DNA of 33,870 nucleotides from Rubripirellula sp. (GTDB lineage: Bacteria; Planctomycetota; Planctomycetia; Pirellulales; Pirellulaceae): positions 69,379 to 103,248 of the forward strand of contig JAAXJB010000082.1 of NCBI GenBank assembly GCA_012270065.1, in the 5' to 3' direction. A program made the translations under genes and the position numbers. Of this stretch, positions 21,621 to 29,269 are shown in pieces (within the stretch, counting starts at the first letter, position 1; the number at the start of each line of letters is the position of its first letter). The notes under the pieces are model-generated. The model saw nothing but the letters and a program-made list of their open reading frames with translations, searched no databases and was not told where the DNA came from.

Positions 21621-22799
21621 ATGGGAAAAAGATTGTTGACGATCTGTTTGTTACTTGCCGCGTTTGTTCAATCGGCTGTCACTGCTGGTGAGCTGTCGCA
21701 GGAAAGATGCAGCGAATTGTTGTCCACTCTGAAACCCGGAAAGGACGCTGTGTGGCGGTCAATTCCCTGGCGTCTGTCGGTGCTTGAAGCCAGAGCCATT
21801 GCTTTGAAAGAAGACAAACCTGTTTTCATATGGGCGATGGATGGGCATCCGCTCGGCTGTGTCTGAAACAATGGAGTTGTCGACCGTGAGTCGACTTTCG
21901 CTCATGCGGGTATCGTCAATTTGCTCAAGACGAGTTTCGTTCCCGTTGCAATTGATCAGGCTTGTCAGCGAAGACAAAAAGATGCCGAAGGAGAGTTTTA
22001 CCGAAAGATTGCTGGTCAGGGGCCGCGTGGCGACTTCTCCAATACCACGCAAGGGTTCTATATCGCCACTGCCGCTGGCAAACTCCTTTTATATAACAAC
22101 AACCGCGATCCGGAAAAACTGTTCCGTTTGATGCGCGAACGTCTCCGTGAGTACGAGTTTGGCTCTCATCCTTTTGATCGTGATCAGGTGAAGGCGGAAC
22201 TGCTGGAAGCCAGCAACGCCAAACGGGATCCACGATACACACTACGTCCACCTGCTGATGGACTGGTCGTGCGCGTTCATGCAAAGGTGCTCGGGGGCTA
22301 CGGGAAGCCGATTTCGGATTCCGAAGCGAGTTTTCAGACGGCGTTGGGACGCGATAATCTGTGGGTCACAGCAGAGGAGCAGGCTGCTTTGGTAAAGGGA
22401 CGGTTCCCTGAAGCTCTGCAGCGGCGTATTGCCCGTTTCCATCTGGTGGATAACACACGAGGCGAACCGCCCATGTGGAAGCAGGATGAAATTCGCAAAT
22501 TGACGATTCAGCTCGATGACGATGGCGTTCTCACTGGCCACGTTGAGCTCGGGACGGCTGATGGTAAACGTGGGTATCGAGCGGAGCTGCGTGGCCGTTT
22601 GGCTGTTGCAGGGAAATCGGTAACCGGTTTCCAGTTGGTGGCACTTGGGAAGTTTTTTGGTGAGGGGCGATACACACGCAACGCACCCAAGGGGCGATTT
22701 CCGCTTGCTGTGACTTTTGATTTGGCCGATGGTTCTGACATCGCTGATGCTGTCGCACCTCAAGGGGCACGAGGCTGGCTGGCGGGGTACTTGAAGTGA
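21621..22799 (+). CDS. Exported thioredoxin-like selenoprotein with in-frame UGA (Sec82)
   Basis: Read through one TGA at 21864-21866, this frame encodes 392 residues. ATG 21621 follows AAGGGTGG and starts a Sec signal peptide (MGKRLLTICLLLAAFVQSAV, cleavage near residue 22), so the protein is exported. Residues about 60-115 look like a thioredoxin fold: EDKPVFIWAMDGHPLGC, then V-Sec-NNGVVDR, then LLKTSFVPVAIDQ, matching the beta-strand, active site, helix and 'FVPVxiD' strand of thioredoxin-like proteins. The active site is Cys80-Val81-Sec82. About 200 further residues form a C-terminal region with a beta-rich end (LTIQLDDDGVLTGHVEL, YRAELRGRLAVAG), of no family I recognise. Both halves are in the same frame and protein-like, a SECIS-like hairpin follows the UGA, and selB-selA-selD lie about 1 kb away. 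The alternative is a nonsense-mutated pseudogene, which I consider much less likely. Confidence 0.85.
21864..21903 (+). promoter_or_regulatory. Bacterial SECIS-like element at the Sec UGA codon
   Basis: Downstream of UGA 21864-21866 a hairpin is formed by GTCGAC (21879-21884) and GTCGAC (21890-21895) around the five-base loop CGTGA. The loop starts 18 bases after the UGA and has G as its second base. GAG (21874-21876) can pair with CTC (21901-21903) below an internal loop. Known bacterial SECIS elements are short stems in the coding sequence whose apical loop starts about 16-37 bases after UGA, with a G in the first two loop positions; this fits. SelB would bind the loop. Function is inferred. 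Confidence 0.7.
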
Positions 22800-22993: not shown

Positions 22994-23662
22994 ATGTCCA
23001 AGCGTATTTCCCACAGCTTTCTCGATCCGCTGATTGGGCCAAAACTCAAAGCACTGTATCCCCAGTTGGCTATCTCTCCCCGGTTTCCACCTGAGGGAAT
23101 TGTCGGTGTAGGGCATCTATTTGCCATTTTAGGTGGGTTGGGTTTTGCGTTTTCAACGCAGTACTGGTGGGGTGGCTTGTTGGCAATGTTGGGAATCGTA
23201 GGGAACCACACTTGTGACTGTATCGACGGGACCCATGCCCGAGCTACCGGTCAATGCCGCAACGGTGGTGAATTGCTTGATCACTTCACGGATCCACTTT
23301 CGTTCACTTACTGGCTGGTGGGAATTGGTTTATCAGTCGGTCGAACTGATTTGACTCTCGTTGCCGTGATCTGTCTGCTCCTGCTCGCGATACTTGTGAA
23401 TATCAAAGCAAAACTGATCGGTGAATTTACTTTGAACAGGTTTGGGCCCACTGAATTCAAGACGCTTCTGTGTTGCTTCGGGCTTGTGCTCGCGATTTTG
23501 TTTTCAGTCAATGTTTTTGAAGTTCATGATTTCGCCGAATGGGGATTGGTGATTCTGGTTGCTTTTGGCATTTGCCAGGTTCCTTACCAGTTGGTTCGTG
23601 CTGTGCGCGAGGTCAATCTCCGCGGTGGACAACCCGACGATACCGAATGGATCACAAAATGA
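22994..23662 (+). CDS. CDP-alcohol phosphatidyltransferase family membrane protein
   Basis: This 222-residue integral membrane enzyme transfers a phosphoalcohol from a CDP-alcohol (such as CDP-diacylglycerol) to a second alcohol in phospholipid synthesis. The complete family signature D-x2-D-G-x2-A-R-x8-G-x3-D-x3-D is visible as DCIDGTHARATGQCRNGG followed by ELLDHFTD (about residues 76-101). Hydrophobic segments flank it on both sides (VGHLFAILGGLGFAFSTQYW before; LTLVAVICLLLLAILVNI, LLCCFGLVLAILFSVNVF and LVILVAFGICQVPYQLV after). The donor and acceptor cannot be told from sequence. It lies 194 bases downstream of the selenoprotein gene on the same strand and is convergent with selD. No strong ribosome binding site precedes the ATG. 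Confidence 0.92.
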   Translation: MSKRISHSFLDPLIGPKLKALYPQLAISPRFPPEGIVGVGHLFAILGGLGFAFSTQYWWGGLLAMLGIVGNHTCDCIDGTHARATGQCRNGGELLDHFTDPLSFTYWLVGIGLSVGRTDLTLVAVICLLLLAILVNIKAKLIGEFTLNRFGPTEFKTLLCCFGLVLAILFSVNVFEVHDFAEWGLVILVAFGICQVPYQLVRAVREVNLRGGQPDDTEWITK

Positions 23663-23796: not shown

Positions 23797-25944
23797 TCAG
23801 TTTACAATCAAGCTTTTTTCGACATCAGACGCATCAAACACCGTCCCGATTCGCACGAGTAGGCGATCACCTACCAAGGACTGAAGGGTCGGAAGCTGAT
23901 CGTTGGACACTCCCAGAAGCAAACCACCGCACGTCTGTGGGTCAAAGAGCAAATCGAATTGCGGTTCTTTCCTGATGTCTGCGGTTGTTGAAATTTTTGC
24001 CGCCGACATGCGGTTGCTGGGAGAAAGGCTGCTCTGGATACCACGCAATACCGCTTCGGTCGAACCGGGCAATGTCGGAATATCGTTAAGGGTCAGGACC
24101 GCAGATTTCTGACTTGCCTCCAGCATTTCGAGTAAATGTCCTGCCAGGCCGAAACCCGTGATATCCGTCCCGGCTGAAATTCCGGCCTCGATCGCGTGGT
24201 GGGCGTATTCGTGCTGACGATCTAGCATGGCGTTGATCAAGTGCTGGTGGTCATGTGCTGCACACCGGCCACGCATGCGCGCAGCGAGAAGAACACCGAT
24301 ACCGATCGGTTTGGTCAGGTAAAGACCGTCACCGGTTTGTAAATTCTTTTTTTCGAGAAGGTTTTTGCCAATGGCTTTACCGATGACAGTGAAGCCGATT
24401 TCAAGACGGGGGCCTTCTATCGTGTGCCCGCCTGCAATTGCAGCACCCATCGCGTCGAATTCGCGTTTCGCGCCTGCAAGTAACTCACGAAGTGTCCTCC
24501 CTTGCGCAGCACTGTCACCTTCGGGAAGCACAATGTTTGACAAGGCGTGTTGCGCGCTCGCGCCACTTGCGACGATATCACTTGCTGCATGGAGCGCAGC
24601 AATTCGGCCCGTTAAATAAGGATCTTCAAACGGACTCGTAAAAAAATCCGTCGATGCAATGATTCTGTCTTCAGCCGTCTGTGCGATGACTGCTGCGTCA
24701 TCCAGATCGAGCGTTCCCGCGGATGACAACGCGGAGTCGAGCAGTCCGGATCCGATTTTGCAGCCGCACCCGCGACACTGCATCGGATCTTCATCGTCTT
24801 CCATGCGCACAGGTTCGAACATTTCCATGAATCTGGAGTCGATTGATTTTTTCCATGCCATGAGCCACTGGTTGGACATGGCGAATCGTTTCCATTGGCC
24901 AATTGCTTTGCCGTCTCCGGTGTTCAGAAGTTGCAGGAAACTGCGTTGCGGGCGGTAATGGACAAGTGGTGCGTCTACCAGTGAGCGCTGGATGTTTTCC
25001 CAAAGGATGGGGCCCTGTCTGACGGCATAAACACCAGCTTTTGGAGTCGGGCTCGTCGAGATCGTGCCAGCATCGCCTACGGCGAACACGTGTGGGGTTG
25101 TAATCGATTGCAGGGTCGGATGAGTGACCAGAAAACCCTTTTCGTCAGTGGCCAGTTGTAATTGTCCGAGGAAATCGGATGCTCCTGCACCGGTGGACCA
25201 TATCACCAGATCTGCGTCAATTCTTTTTCCCTCCGGGGTTTCCAGGTACTCGTCCTGAATTGACTGAACGTCAAAGTTCGTGATGATTTCTATTTTGCGT
25301 TGATGCAGTTGCCTGATGGCAATTTTTCGGGTGTGGGCGTTTGCGGCTGCAAGTAACCGGGAGCTACGCGTGACAATGGAAATTTCGTGATCCCCACCCC
25401 AATTCTTGTCGAGAAACGGTGGCAGACAGAATGCTATCTCTAGTCCAGCGGCCCCACTTCCTGCAACAACGACACGAAGCGGACGGCTGAGTTGCTTTTC
25501 ATGAAGCAATGTGAGGGTATGTTGCAGTCTTTCGAGGAAAGTCTGCATCGGTTTGATCGCAACAACACTGCCACCATTTACCACCAACTCGCCCTGCATA
25601 CTGGTTGATCCGGTCCCAATGGAAAGGAGATCGAACTCCATCGGGGGGCGATGCTGGAAGAGAATGTTTCTGCTTTCCGGGTCCAGCCCCGTTACAGGTT
25701 CTGTGATCAGTCTTGCGCCAACTGACGCACAGAGCTGAACCAGATCGATTTGCATTTTTTCTCGGGGAACTTGTCCGGCAAGGACGGCGGGAAGCATTCC
25801 TGAATACGTGGCAACATTGAAATTGGAAATGCAGGTGAGAGCGGTGTCTTCAAGTCCATGCATTCCGTACATTCTCAGGACATGGGCGTTGGTGTGACCC
25901 ATGCCCAGCAGTACGACGTGTTTTGAGGGAAGACGCTCGTTCAT
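23797..25944 (-). CDS. selD: NAD(P)H dehydrogenase-like flavoprotein fused to selenide, water dikinase (SelD)
   Basis: This 715-residue protein has two parts. Residues 1-380 are a pyridine nucleotide-disulfide oxidoreductase of the NDH-2 type: an N-terminal dinucleotide loop (VVLLGMGHTNAHVL, degenerate), a second loop VVVAGSGAAGLEIAF (158-172) for NAD(P)H, and the FAD-contacting VFAVGDAGT (287-294). Residues 386-715 are SelD, which makes selenophosphate from selenide and ATP. Cys393-Gly-Cys395-Lys396 in RGCGCKIG correspond to E. coli Cys17, Cys19 and Lys20. The active residue is Cys, not Sec, so this SelD does not itself need Sec insertion. SelD signatures TDFFTSPFEDPYLTGRIAAL and DITGFGLAGHLLEML are present. 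The flavoprotein domain may supply reduced selenium; that is inference. It is the last gene of the sel operon, with a 4-base overlap with selA. Confidence 0.95.
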   Translation of the reverse strand: MNERLPSKHVVLLGMGHTNAHVLRMYGMHGLEDTALTCISNFNVATYSGMLPAVLAGQVPREKMQIDLVQLCASVGARLITEPVTGLDPESRNILFQHRPPMEFDLLSIGTGSTSMQGELVVNGGSVVAIKPMQTFLERLQHTLTLLHEKQLSRPLRVVVAGSGAAGLEIAFCLPPFLDKNWGGDHEISIVTRSSRLLAAANAHTRKIAIRQLHQRKIEIITNFDVQSIQDEYLETPEGKRIDADLVIWSTGAGASDFLGQLQLATDEKGFLVTHPTLQSITTPHVFAVGDAGTISTSPTPKAGVYAVRQGPILWENIQRSLVDAPLVHYRPQRSFLQLLNTGDGKAIGQWKRFAMSNQWLMAWKKSIDSRFMEMFEPVRMEDDEDPMQCRGCGCKIGSGLLDSALSSAGTLDLDDAAVIAQTAEDRIIASTDFFTSPFEDPYLTGRIAALHAASDIVASGASAQHALSNIVLPEGDSAAQGRTLRELLAGAKREFDAMGAAIAGGHTIEGPRLEIGFTVIGKAIGKNLLEKKNLQTGDGLYLTKPIGIGVLLAARMRGRCAAHDHQHLINAMLDRQHEYAHHAIEAGISAGTDITGFGLAGHLLEMLEASQKSAVLTLNDIPTLPGSTEAVLRGIQSSLSPSNRMSAAKISTTADIRKEPQFDLLFDPQTCGGLLLGVSNDQLPTLQSLVGDRLLVRIGTVFDASDVEKSLIVN

Positions 25945-27350
25945 TCCGCCACAGGTTCCGTGTTCGCTGGAATCTCGGAGTTTGCGATTGCCGCGTTGAT
26001 GTTGGTTGCCAATACCGGCAGTTGGGAATCGCTGACGGTTCGGAGGTCCAGTATCAGGGAATCATCAGTGACGCGTGTTTGAACTGGGGTTTCACCAGTT
26101 CGCAGGTGTCGGGCAAGGTGGTGGGGTGGGAAACCAGTTATTTGAACCGCGAAGCTTGCCAGATTGAAACCCGGAACGGACCCGCCACCTACCTGTGACT
26201 CGCATGGAATTAATTTTGCGACGTCTGGATGATTGATCCGGGAAATCAGCGTTTCACAGCGTTGTCTGATCGTATCTGGATTCGTGGTAATCATCTGCAA
26301 GGTGGGTAACTCGGTCAGTGCCTTGCCGGAAAGATGGATTTCTGTCGTGGCCTCCAGGGCAGCAAGAGTCAGTTTGTCAACTCGCATGGCACGCATGATG
26401 GGGCTACGCCGAAGTTTTTCGATCCATCGTTTTTTCCCGACCAGAATTCCAGCTTGTGGACCACCGAAAAGTTTGTCGCCGCTGAACAACGAGATGTCTG
26501 CACCCGACCGCACGCTATCAATGACGTTTGGTTCCTCTAATCCATATGGGGTCATGTCGATCATGGATCCACTTCCCAGGTCATCAATCACAGCGACCGA
26601 ATCGGGACGCTCCATTTGGACGAGCTCATCAATGCCAGGTTCGGTTACAAATCCAGAGAGGCTGAAGTTGCTCCGGTGGACGCGAATCACGGCACCAGTG
26701 TTTTCATTCACTGCAGCTTCGTAATCTCGCAGGTAGGTCCGGTTAGTCGTTCCAACTTCACGCAAAGTCACGCCTGCTGCCCTGAATACATCTGGCAAGC
26801 GAAAGCCACCACCAATCTCGACCAGTTGTCCGCGTGATACCACCACTTCCTGTCCGGCAGCGAGCGCTTGCAATACCAGAACAGTGGCGGCGGCGCAGTT
26901 GTTCACAACCAAAGCATCTTCTGCCCCGGTAAGTTCGGCTAACAAAGCCATCACCCGATGACCGCGTTTGCTGCGGCGCCCGGATTCAAGATCAAGTTCG
27001 ACATTGGTGTAACGTGAGGCGTTCTCTGCGGCTCGAATGGCCTGTTCCGGCATCGGCGAACGACCGAGATTGGTGTGCAAAACCACTCCTGTAGCGTTGA
27101 TCACCGGTTGTAGCCGCTGACCGAGATCAGCGTTTGCCTTGTGTAACACACGATCCACAATCCACCCAGTCAAGCATGTGTTGATGGCAAGTTGGTCCTT
27201 GAGCAGATGCTCGCGACATTCCTGCACAACTTCTCTTACCCAGGTGGTGATCTGTGCCTGGGTAACATGATCACGCAGGTTCACTACATTCTCGTGTCGC
27301 AAAAGCACATCAACTGATGGAAGGGCTCTTAATCGCTCACTGTTTGTCAC
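25941..27350 (-). CDS. selA: L-seryl-tRNA(Sec) selenium transferase
   Basis: SelA is the PLP-dependent enzyme that converts Ser-tRNA(Sec) to Sec-tRNA(Sec) using selenophosphate. The 469 residues match the family. The N-terminal domain (LPSVDVLL) is followed by PVINATGVVLHTNLGRSPM (83-101) and YTNVELDLESGRRSKRGHR, typical of bacterial SelA. The PLP lysine is Lys293 in SLFSGDKLFGGPQAGILVG, matching Lys295 of E. coli. It is the middle gene of the operon: its ATG overlaps the selB stop by 4 bases, and its stop overlaps the selD-fusion start by 4 bases. Confidence 0.98.
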   Translation of the reverse strand: MTNSERLRALPSVDVLLRHENVVNLRDHVTQAQITTWVREVVQECREHLLKDQLAINTCLTGWIVDRVLHKANADLGQRLQPVINATGVVLHTNLGRSPMPEQAIRAAENASRYTNVELDLESGRRSKRGHRVMALLAELTGAEDALVVNNCAAATVLVLQALAAGQEVVVSRGQLVEIGGGFRLPDVFRAAGVTLREVGTTNRTYLRDYEAAVNENTGAVIRVHRSNFSLSGFVTEPGIDELVQMERPDSVAVIDDLGSGSMIDMTPYGLEEPNVIDSVRSGADISLFSGDKLFGGPQAGILVGKKRWIEKLRRSPIMRAMRVDKLTLAALEATTEIHLSGKALTELPTLQMITTNPDTIRQRCETLISRINHPDVAKLIPCESQVGGGSVPGFNLASFAVQITGFPPHHLARHLRTGETPVQTRVTDDSLILDLRTVSDSQLPVLATNINAAIANSEIPANTEPVAE

Positions 27351-29269
27351 GGTTGATGGTCCGCCTTTTCCGGAGAAGAATGTTGTGGCATGTTTCTACC
27401 TTGAACGCGTATGTCACCGTTGCGAACTGTAATCTGCGAGTTATCGCAAAATTCCAGCAAAGGAATTGCATGTTTGCGGGTAATGCCCCAATGATCGCGT
27501 ATTTCGGCTACTGATCGTTCGGGGCCGTCCGTGAACAATTCCAGGAGTTCTCCACACAGCATTTCAAATGATTGTTGTGAAATGAAGAACCCGTGTCCAA
27601 GATCGATCAGGATACGTTGTTGGGTTGCAAATCTTATCAGCGACGCAACGGCATCGGTTGTGCTGTCCAGAGCAGTTGCAGCCTCCTTGAGGGTTGGAGG
27701 TTTACGTTGTTGCTCGTAAAGAGAGAGCAGCTGATTCATGCGGTTGAGTTGTTTTTTTGACAGGATTGTTTTTTCTGATGGCACTGCGATCATGCGATTG
27801 ACACGCACGATCTTTTTTTCCTTGACGAGATTGTTGAGAACGCCCTGCGTTGTTCCCGCGGACGCGATTGGGATGGCACGCTGAATCACTGACTGTTCGT
27901 CCAGCCAGGCGTCGTCCATCGATTCTGCCTGAGATGTCAACAAATTGATCACGAACGTGGACAGCCGAGCCAGAAGAGAAGGTGACGTGAGCGTTTTTCC
28001 GTCTGTTGAGACGATTGTTCCGTCCTGGATGCAGGATTCGGTTGCCGACTGAAGCTGCGAACCATCAAGACCCACAACGGTTTTCAGATCCAGTGACGCG
28101 GGTGAACATTCACCGAAAAATTCGACCCATGCCGTTAAACGTTGCTGTGGCGATGCGTCGCAAAGCTGCTTGCCGAGTTTGAGGAGCCTTGTGGTCTGTT
28201 TTGATGCTGGCTTTACTGTTCCAAGAATACGACCGCCAGCAAACGAACCCACTGGATACGGTTTTCTGAACAGACAACTCTGGCCATGCGTGGCAACAAC
28301 GGGCTGTTCAACATCCACGATGACGACTTCTTTTCCAGACGCCGGTATTGTCTTCGGGCCGAATAGCCGCGCGGAGGTTGCACTGGTTGCTGTGTGGAAC
28401 TGAATCGTGGTGGGGCACTTGACTTCCGTTGCATCAACGAATGTTTTCAATTCAACCAGTAATCGGCTTGCAGGCACGTGTGTGTCTGTTGCAACCAGTT
28501 CATCTCCACGGGCAATCTCCGAGGCGGAAACTCCTGTTAGATTCAAAGCGGTCCGAACACCGATTTGTGAGCGTTGTTCGTGAATGCCGTGCACTTCGAT
28601 TTCGCGTACTCGCACCAATTGGCCCGTTCGGGCGATTTGAAGCTGGTCACCAATCTGAAGAACACCGCTCCAAGGGGAACCCGCTGCAACACAGCCACGT
28701 CCTTCAACGGTAAATACACGGTCGATTGGCATTCGGAAGTGACCCGATGAACTCCGCTTTGTTTTTCTCGCCATGCTGGAAAAAAGAGCTCGCAACTCGT
28801 CGAGACCCTCTCCAGTGACTGACGAAAGAGGAACTCTCGGGACATTTTCAAAACCGAATTCTGCCAGGAAAAGATCCAGTTCCTCCGACAGTTCCAGCGT
28901 GTTCTTGTTTTCAACAAGATCTACACGTGACATCGCGACAATCAACTTGGTGATGCCCAGCGATTGCAGAATCGCCGCGTGTTCCAAAGTCTGTGCCTGA
29001 ATACCCTGATCGCATGCCACGACCAGTAAACCAATGTCTACCGCTGAAACACCTGCAAGCAGATTGCCAATGTACTTCTGGTGGCCGGGTGCATCGATGA
29101 GCGCGTACTGGTCAGAGCCATCGCTGAACGTAGCAAATCCCAGGTCAATGGTGATCCCACGACGTTTTTCCTCCGGGTGGCTGTCCGTATCGACGCCCGT
29201 CAAAGCCGCAACCAGCGAGGTTTTCCCGTGGTCAATGTGGCCGATCACGCCAATGATGGTGTAGCTCAT
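27347..29269 (-). CDS. selB: Selenocysteine-specific translation elongation factor SelB
   Basis: SelB is the EF-Tu-like GTPase that carries Sec-tRNA(Sec) to UGA codons marked by a SECIS hairpin. From ATG 29269 it has 640 residues. G1 is GHIDHGKT (10-17), switch I is EEKRRGITIDLGF, and G3 is DAPGH (59-63). The usual [NT]KxD of G4 reads SRVD (114-117), Lys being replaced by Arg. Beta-barrel domains follow (FRMPIDRVFTVEGRGCVAAG), and the C-terminal 250 residues are winged-helix repeats that bind SECIS, ending EIRDHWGITRKHAIPLLEFC. The frame is open upstream to 29377, but the family conserved start is MSYTIIGVIGHIDHGKT, so I use it; its binding site is weak. It is the first gene of selB-selA-selD. 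Confidence 0.97.
   Translation of the reverse strand: MSYTIIGVIGHIDHGKTSLVAALTGVDTDSHPEEKRRGITIDLGFATFSDGSDQYALIDAPGHQKYIGNLLAGVSAVDIGLLVVACDQGIQAQTLEHAAILQSLGITKLIVAMSRVDLVENKNTLELSEELDLFLAEFGFENVPRVPLSSVTGEGLDELRALFSSMARKTKRSSSGHFRMPIDRVFTVEGRGCVAAGSPWSGVLQIGDQLQIARTGQLVRVREIEVHGIHEQRSQIGVRTALNLTGVSASEIARGDELVATDTHVPASRLLVELKTFVDATEVKCPTTIQFHTATSATSARLFGPKTIPASGKEVVIVDVEQPVVATHGQSCLFRKPYPVGSFAGGRILGTVKPASKQTTRLLKLGKQLCDASPQQRLTAWVEFFGECSPASLDLKTVVGLDGSQLQSATESCIQDGTIVSTDGKTLTSPSLLARLSTFVINLLTSQAESMDDAWLDEQSVIQRAIPIASAGTTQGVLNNLVKEKKIVRVNRMIAVPSEKTILSKKQLNRMNQLLSLYEQQRKPPTLKEAATALDSTTDAVASLIRFATQQRILIDLGHGFFISQQSFEMLCGELLELFTDGPERSVAEIRDHWGITRKHAIPLLEFCDNSQITVRNGDIRVQGRNMPQHSSPEKADHQP

Follow-up and report, generated by a model that had tools for sequence, protein, structure and literature searches.

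An apparently undescribed, very probable selenoprotein family on a predicted DsbH/Thioredoxin_7-type fold, seen from a locus in Rubripirellula

The described systems that lie closest to the locus analysed here are the Thioredox_DsbH/DUF255 family (PF03190; structure 7tkv), Thioredoxin_7 (PF13899), the Trx7/PDZ (seleno)protein NF041199, which is likewise a Sec family and is listed with a CxxU motif, the VPGUxxT thioredoxin-like (seleno)protein NF041383, the thioredoxin-like selenoprotein Sec.1 (PF13192), for which a CxU motif is listed, and the human anterior gradient protein 3 (AGR3; 3ph9). A 2026 review tabulates 119 prokaryotic selenoprotein families and says that nearly all selenoproteins have Cys homologues (PMC13188914); the same review cites Deng et al. 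2026 for selenoprotein candidates from groundwater MAGs. The authors of deep-Sep caution that their method may miss selenoproteins without Cys homologues (PMC12013277). Planctomycete candidates are given in a supplementary table of PMC4807772, and a member of the family described below may be among them.

We analysed a window of 33,870 nucleotides (the whole stretch of DNA under study) from a Rubripirellula sp. genome of 7.0 Mb that is 99.5% complete and holds one match to the read-through protein. The gene of interest (21621..22799, forward strand) runs from ATG 21621 to the terminal stop TGA 22797-22799 and encodes 392 residues in a frame that is intact save for one TGA at 21864-21866 (codon 82); its relatives align over the full length, and RFHLVDNTRGEPP is a conserved segment in the protein. 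The initial annotation had described two in-frame halves interrupted only by that TGA, close to Cys80 (TGT 21858-21860), and had read them as one selenoprotein. The coordinates, Cys80 and the terminal TGA are all as described, and the selenoprotein reading is upheld by the conserved UGA, a covarying RNA hairpin, purifying selection on both sides of the UGA, adjoining Sec machinery and a thioredoxin-type structural model. The downstream half is also present in the ORF list as the separate TTG-started ORF that had been pointed out (21921-22799), which a gene caller could report. The UGA is almost certainly read as Sec, and the gene very probably yields a full-length selenoprotein that would act as an exported selenol oxidoreductase. 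The recoded frame, SECIS, selection, machinery and predicted fold are well supported in silico. A hydrophobic N-terminal stretch recognised by eye (21621..21686, forward strand), with low pLDDT in residues 1-20, forms a putative signal peptide; judged solely from this hydrophobic N-terminus, the protein is probably exported, and cleavage would fall near residue 22.

AlphaFold2, run on an 87-row alignment, returned a model with a pLDDT of 94.7 and a pTM of 0.90. Strand 68-73 is followed in this model by Sec82 and, directly after it, by helix 83-90, with Cys80 two residues before Sec; the predicted arrangement around Sec82 is that of a thioredoxin-type active site. The proposal that the UGA falls at the thioredoxin redox site is matched by this model, in which Sec82 opens the helix after the thioredoxin-domain strand. 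The thioredoxin-like domain, of DsbH/Thioredoxin_7 type, occupies approximately 21684..22160 (forward strand), and its best Foldseek matches include 7tkv, a DsbH-domain protein (top match; E 1.1e-3, probability 1.00, TM 0.26, rmsd 9.1), and AGR3 (3ph9; E 7.8e-3, probability 1.00, TM 0.58-0.62 by its own length). No match of the full model reached E <= 0.001 and TM values were low by query length. The thioredoxin-like fold is read from the strand and helix flanking the site together with two matches that have a probability of 1.00 and are structurally weak. A sequence search of the PDB gave 3ira at E 0.013 only, plus two viral fusion-protein chains that we took as spurious.

The remainder of the protein is a β-rich C-terminal domain (22227..22796, forward strand) that was folded alone with an AF2 pLDDT of 95.7. 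By sequence, the window domain matched nothing in Pfam (E <= 0.1) or in the PDB (E <= 10), and by structure nothing in Foldseek (E <= 0.001); a Pfam search with 45 C-terminal domains of the family gave four families, each weak and each in one member. The earlier remark that the last 200 residues or so match nothing known accordingly stands, in that no significant Pfam or PDB relative was found. A START/aromatase-like or lipocalin-like fold was considered for this domain and rejected, the Foldseek matches behind it being weak, with TM values of 0.3 or less.

Conservation of the TGA was followed at three scales. First, among 60 related genomes, its own included, 19 hold a match, and the in-frame TGA is present in 23 of the 24 matches, the 24th starting past the site at a contig end; this conservation among related genomes is far beyond chance. 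Second, a profile of 16 read-through sequences found matches at E <= 1e-4 in 189 of the 392 Planctomycetota genomes sampled; many of these are weak, and a genome may have up to four. Strong matches (best E <= 1.6e-15) occur in 100 genomes, about a quarter of the 392, by a count made by eye from the profile-search table, and a few of these are partial or non-Sec. Of the 78 profile matches aligned in fetched loci, 72 span the site and show Sec in 63, Ser in six and Asp, Pro and Cys in one each, a count enriched for exceptions because all nine stop-free site-spanning rows among the matches listed, where there are at least nine, were fetched deliberately. The count covers the fetched loci, and L001 and L025 are one locus, which leaves 62 distinct Sec sites among the 63. 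Third, a collection of 84,980 species was scanned at the DNA level with the pattern G-H-P-[L/F]-[G/A]-C-[T/V/A/I/M]-x-N-N-G, where x is NNN. At least 116 stretches were found; in all 81 matches listed, across 80 listed loci, x is TGA, and each of the 81 frames is recognised by the family profile, the weakest at E 5.6e-37. This pattern is blind to members without Cys at -2, because it demands that Cys. An in-frame UGA is therefore conserved at one homologous site (63 of 72 fetched matches; 81 of 81 listed), as a bacterial selenoprotein should show. The carriers among the listed matches belong mostly to Planctomycetota and Verrucomicrobiota and also to Armatimonadota and Latescibacterota, with single MAGs, which may be misbinned, labelled Chloroflexi, Neomarinimicrobiota and Actinomycetota. 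The complete genomes of two cultured strains, Planctomycetes bacterium K23_9 (CP036526, L132) and Pla163 (CP036290, L106), are among the carriers of the TGA form. A plasmid collection gave no match to the family. The family is large and spans several phyla; two planctomycete contigs (L042, L095) each bear two tandem Sec copies.

The usual motif of the family is GHPLGC-T-U-NNG, that is, C-x-U, and the window gene has C-V-Sec at 21858..21866 (forward strand). At the 62 distinct Sec sites found by homology, Cys stands at -2 in 48, at -1 in eight and at neither position in five, and one site is cut off. The C-V-Sec motif proposed earlier for the thioredoxin redox site is hence typical in its C-x-U form, but it is not a thioredoxin-style CxxC and its -2 Cys is not universal. 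In the Sec members that have Cys at neither position (L020, L022, one copy in L055, L058 and L072) resolution must fall to another residue or to none. The 87-row alignment gives too high a frequency of the -2 Cys, because 46 of its 87 rows came from the Cys-demanding pattern, and its Sec column is invariant by construction, all rows having been chosen as Sec members. As a separate observation, a second and longer branch (L016, L017, L018, L019, L021 and L023) has an adjacent Cys-Sec pair in the motif RPxDDxRC-U-xFA, a different C-terminal part, one in-frame TGA each (oriented nt 1630-1717) and a GC-rich hairpin, spotted by eye, whose loop is CGUG; L016 and L019 of this branch had no NCBIfam or Pfam model above cut-off.

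With moderate confidence we favour a redox mechanism in which Sec82, placed at the start of the helix after strand 68-73, would be the catalytic selenol and Cys80 would usually resolve it as a Cys-Sec selenenylsulfide. The mature protein would then consist of the thioredoxin-like domain and the β-rich C-terminal domain, and its likely role would be that of an extracytoplasmic selenol oxidoreductase engaged in disulfide or peroxide reduction or in thiol exchange, with specificity residing in the C-terminal domain; export, the redox activity, the role of Cys80 and the substrate are inferred. The rival that survives best keeps the selenoprotein and gives up the Cys-Sec pair: Sec82 would work alone, peroxidase-like or by holding a metal or a substrate, and Cys80 would be incidental. 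The 13 distinct Sec sites that lack Cys at -2 favour such a reading, the 48 that have it count against, and we consider it possible but doubtful.

A second rival accepts the selenoprotein and questions its novelty, holding that the family is already catalogued as Trx7/PDZ, as VPGUxxT or as another entry that was compared by name, domain identifier and motif only. It draws on weak profile matches, to NF041199 in one of 16 members (E 0.0023) and to NF041383, a distant similarity, in seven of 16 (best E 0.0038). Yet no NCBIfam model matches the window protein even at E <= 1, these two included, no PDZ domain occurs among the Pfam matches, and the motifs differ, C-x-U here and CxxU in Trx7/PDZ, GHPLGCTUNNG here and VPGU in the other family; by these criteria the window protein belongs to neither. 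Judged by name, domain identifier and motif, none of the 119 families in Table 1 of PMC13188914 fits; to that extent the initial annotation was right to see no classical bacterial selenoprotein family here. Literature searches on the motif, on planctomycete and verrucomicrobial selenoproteins, on Trx7/VPGU and on groundwater MAGs gave no description of the family among the matches listed. We judge prior cataloguing improbable and treat the selenoprotein family as new. No Pfam or NCBIfam model matches the window protein above its cut-off, so genes of this type are likely annotated as truncated pieces.

The machinery for decoding UGA lies close by. Past an intervening gene (22994-23662) come, all on the reverse strand, selD (23797..25944; TIGR00476 257.2 bits, cut-off 125), selA (25941..27350; TIGR00474 515.6 bits, cut-off 267.9) and selB (27347..29269, ATG 29269 used; TIGR00475 298.2 bits, cut-off 242.25), and these scores bear out the identification of the three genes about 1 kb away. 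A tRNA-Sec with anticodon TCA (70.8 bits) is encoded on another contig, so that the genome holds selA, selB, selD and tRNA-Sec, the set that is looked for in support of a bacterial selenoprotein. The SelD is itself a fusion, with an N-terminal FAD/NAD oxidoreductase of the pyridine nucleotide-disulfide oxidoreductase type (TIGR03169, 345.6 bits); its SelD part has CRGCGCKIG near the start, without an in-frame TGA. In all seven nearest relatives (L002-L008) selD adjoins the gene and a Gfo/Idh gene is kept on the opposite side, and in L151, L083 and L091 selA is present as well, along with selB, whole or in part; that of L091 is cut at the contig end. Seven of 18 loci, more distant ones (L009-L012, L030, L114 and L132; flanks of 0.7-8 kb), had no match to five neighbour proteins, selD included, and L087 has no selD in flanks that extend only to the gene before it; the Gfo/Idh and selD neighbourhood is common to close relatives only. 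The neighbourhood was tried as a clue to function and set aside, the ORF clusters around 118 loci being small (at most nine loci) beyond the gene itself or overlapping frames.

Across genomes the gene occurs mostly together with selB. In the Planctomycetota sample, selB exceeds its cut-off in 92 of the 100 strong-match genomes versus 143 of the 292 others (p 4e-16; counts read by eye from tables, with over-cut-off status inferred from best E). The eight strong-match genomes without it comprise three that have a single match with Ser or Pro at the site (G156, G232 and G354) and five that are 83-90% complete. Among the 60 relatives, selB is over cut-off in 17 of 19 with a match versus 18 of 41 without. 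Within the genus, 12 of 22 genomes carry the gene (G015 as a fragment only); five near-complete genomes that lack selB (G001, G003, G012, G018 and G021) also lack the gene, and five have selB and not the gene. G008 and G009 have the gene and no selB match at E <= 1e-60, with selD beside the gene on the same contig in both.

The UGA is followed by a SECIS-like hairpin (21879..21895, forward strand) that reads GUCGAC-CGUGA-GUCGAC at nt 16-32 (the U of UGA being nt 1), with a stem of 6 bp and a UGA-to-loop distance of 18 nt; its loop G-U lies at nt 23-24, as in E. coli fdhF. Covariation was examined in 61 sequences that were picked on amino acids alone (UNNG..DR in the protein), and 125 of 126 distinct 60-mers entered the analysis. 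Each pair from 17:31 to 21:27 is intact in 60 or all 61 of the sequences, but 16:32, the outermost of the stem, in just 26. Both partners of pair 18:30 are third codon positions, and they are paired in 61 of 61 (C-G 45, G-C 10, U-A 6). Among sequences with four-fold codons on both sides, 42 of 42 are paired versus a mean of 27.4 and a maximum of 35 in 10,000 shuffles that ignore relatedness. Folding energy compared with synonymous recoding gave a mean z of -1.03 at the UGA, whereas control segments lying 30, 60 and 90 codons further along gave -0.08, -0.34 and -0.11 (p 1.8e-15; n=120 at every position). Published bSECIS constraints are a loop of 3-9 nt, a stem of 4-16 bp, a G in the first two loop positions, a spacing of 16-37 nt and an MFE <= -7.5 (PMC13188914). 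With its CGUGA loop, 6-bp stem, spacing of 18 nt and -12.5 kcal/mol the window hairpin satisfies them (several sub-windows having been searched), as do 115 of 123 members, eight failing; 70, 62 and 64 of 123 control segments of the same genes pass too, which makes this test weak by itself and the covariation the stronger evidence. An Rfam scan at gathering cut-offs gave no match. We envisage that ribosomes arrive at UGA 21864, that SelB would bind the hairpin and deliver Sec-tRNA-Sec made by SelA and SelD on the tRNA-Sec encoded elsewhere in the genome, and that Sec82 would be inserted before the remaining 310 residues are synthesised.

A third rival holds that the UGA is decoded otherwise, as Trp or another amino acid by a near-cognate tRNA or a reassigned code, or that it serves as a regulated stop. 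The amino acid at position 82 is indeed inferred indirectly, which leaves this reading some room; against it stand the concentration of carriers in selB genomes and the adjacency of selD noted above, the SECIS geometry of the hairpin and the placement of the codon at a thioredoxin-type active-site position. A reassigned code, in particular, is rejected because this gene and many of its relatives also end in TGA. We regard decoding other than as Sec as very improbable.

Purifying selection acts to a similar degree on the two halves of the selenoprotein gene. In comparisons of L001 with six relatives, pS was 0.72-0.83, and pN/pS came to 0.20-0.38 after the UGA and to 0.23-0.51 over the 62 codons before it. 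A nonsense mutation or sequencing error truncating a once-intact gene, a reading to which the separate downstream ORF and one relative with an extra TAA might lend colour, is dismissed as having next to no probability by this two-sided selection, by the same TGA in every listed free-codon match from several phyla and by the covarying hairpin. The relative in question is a MAG contig (L003) whose additional in-frame TAA lies upstream of the Sec codon (oriented nt 1606) and may be an assembly error or mark a decaying copy.

The non-Sec forms bear on the same question. Relatives without a redox residue at position 82, which the initial annotation had named as a sign of a pseudogene, do exist, but they are Ser, Asp and Pro forms that stand among Sec forms with the downstream half intact, which looks like secondary loss of Sec rather than a nonsense pseudogene. 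In a maximum-likelihood tree built quickly from 93 Sec and eight non-Sec rows (101 in all), the non-Sec rows are nested among Sec forms and require at least four Sec-loss changes: two to Ser, covering six rows, and one each to Asp and Pro. The tree is midpoint-rooted with SH-aLRT support only, the Pro row and others sit on long branches, and in L058-L060 and L062 the alignment is loose where the Ser or Pro stands. Six CU-motif relatives, L067, incomplete rows and near-copies were left out, 93 of the 126 remaining Sec rows being kept; because the Cys relative L067 and the CU-motif relatives were dropped, the tree is unable to show a change to Cys. At two loci (L058, G169:C37; L055, G220:C321) a Sec copy and a non-Sec paralogue with Ser or Asp stand close together, as natural Sec-loss pairs.

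Of the expectation that homologues would have Cys or Sec at position 82, the Sec part held and the Cys part largely did not. Cys at the Sec position is absent from the 81 listed free-codon matches and occurs in one remote relative among the 72 site-spanning matches (L067, G200:C128; E 1.8e-11, motif C-S-C-A-N-S), which is possibly a Cys counterpart at the level of the superfamily. Among these matches the family thus shows no Cys homologue of the kind that methods based on Cys/Sec pairs use as a filter, a criterion that is customary and not defining. One explanation, which we hold in even balance, is that the selenoprotein family is an obligate one: an ancient extracytoplasmic enzyme, spread over several phyla, would catalyse a reaction for which selenium is required, Cys would not take the place of Sec, and a lineage losing Sec would give up the redox site (Ser, Asp or Pro). 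Were this true, Cys/Sec-pair methods would miss the family because there is no Cys replacement, and the family may rank among the commonest selenoproteins of Planctomycetota. Sec here looks hard to replace, which makes the family a natural setting in which to ask why Sec is retained, and it offers a candidate reason for the use of Sec in planctomycetes and Verrucomicrobiota.

Set beside the known systems, the family is unusual in its want of Cys counterparts within the family, in its breadth across overlooked phyla and in its orphan C-terminal domain, confidently predicted and without a relative found. Its best Pfam relative is Thioredox_DsbH/DUF255, which shares the thioredoxin-like active-site half and at E <= 1 is matched by 13 of the 16 members, the best at 1.4e-4; the window protein scores 12.9 bits (E 0.11), short of the gathering score of 27 for that family, and differs from it in having Sec at the site and another C-terminal domain. 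Thioredoxin_7 shows weak similarity in eight of 16 members (best 3.2e-4), and these two families are the nearest to the thioredoxin half of the protein. Sec.1 shares the CxU motif, but PF13192 is absent from the Pfam matches of 16 family members at E <= 1. AGR3 shares the thioredoxin-like fold but is a human protein with about 135 residues in the structure and 11-14% identity. Our best reading is that the locus represents a new, apparently undescribed selenoprotein family built on the DsbH/Thioredoxin_7 fold, a known superfamily.
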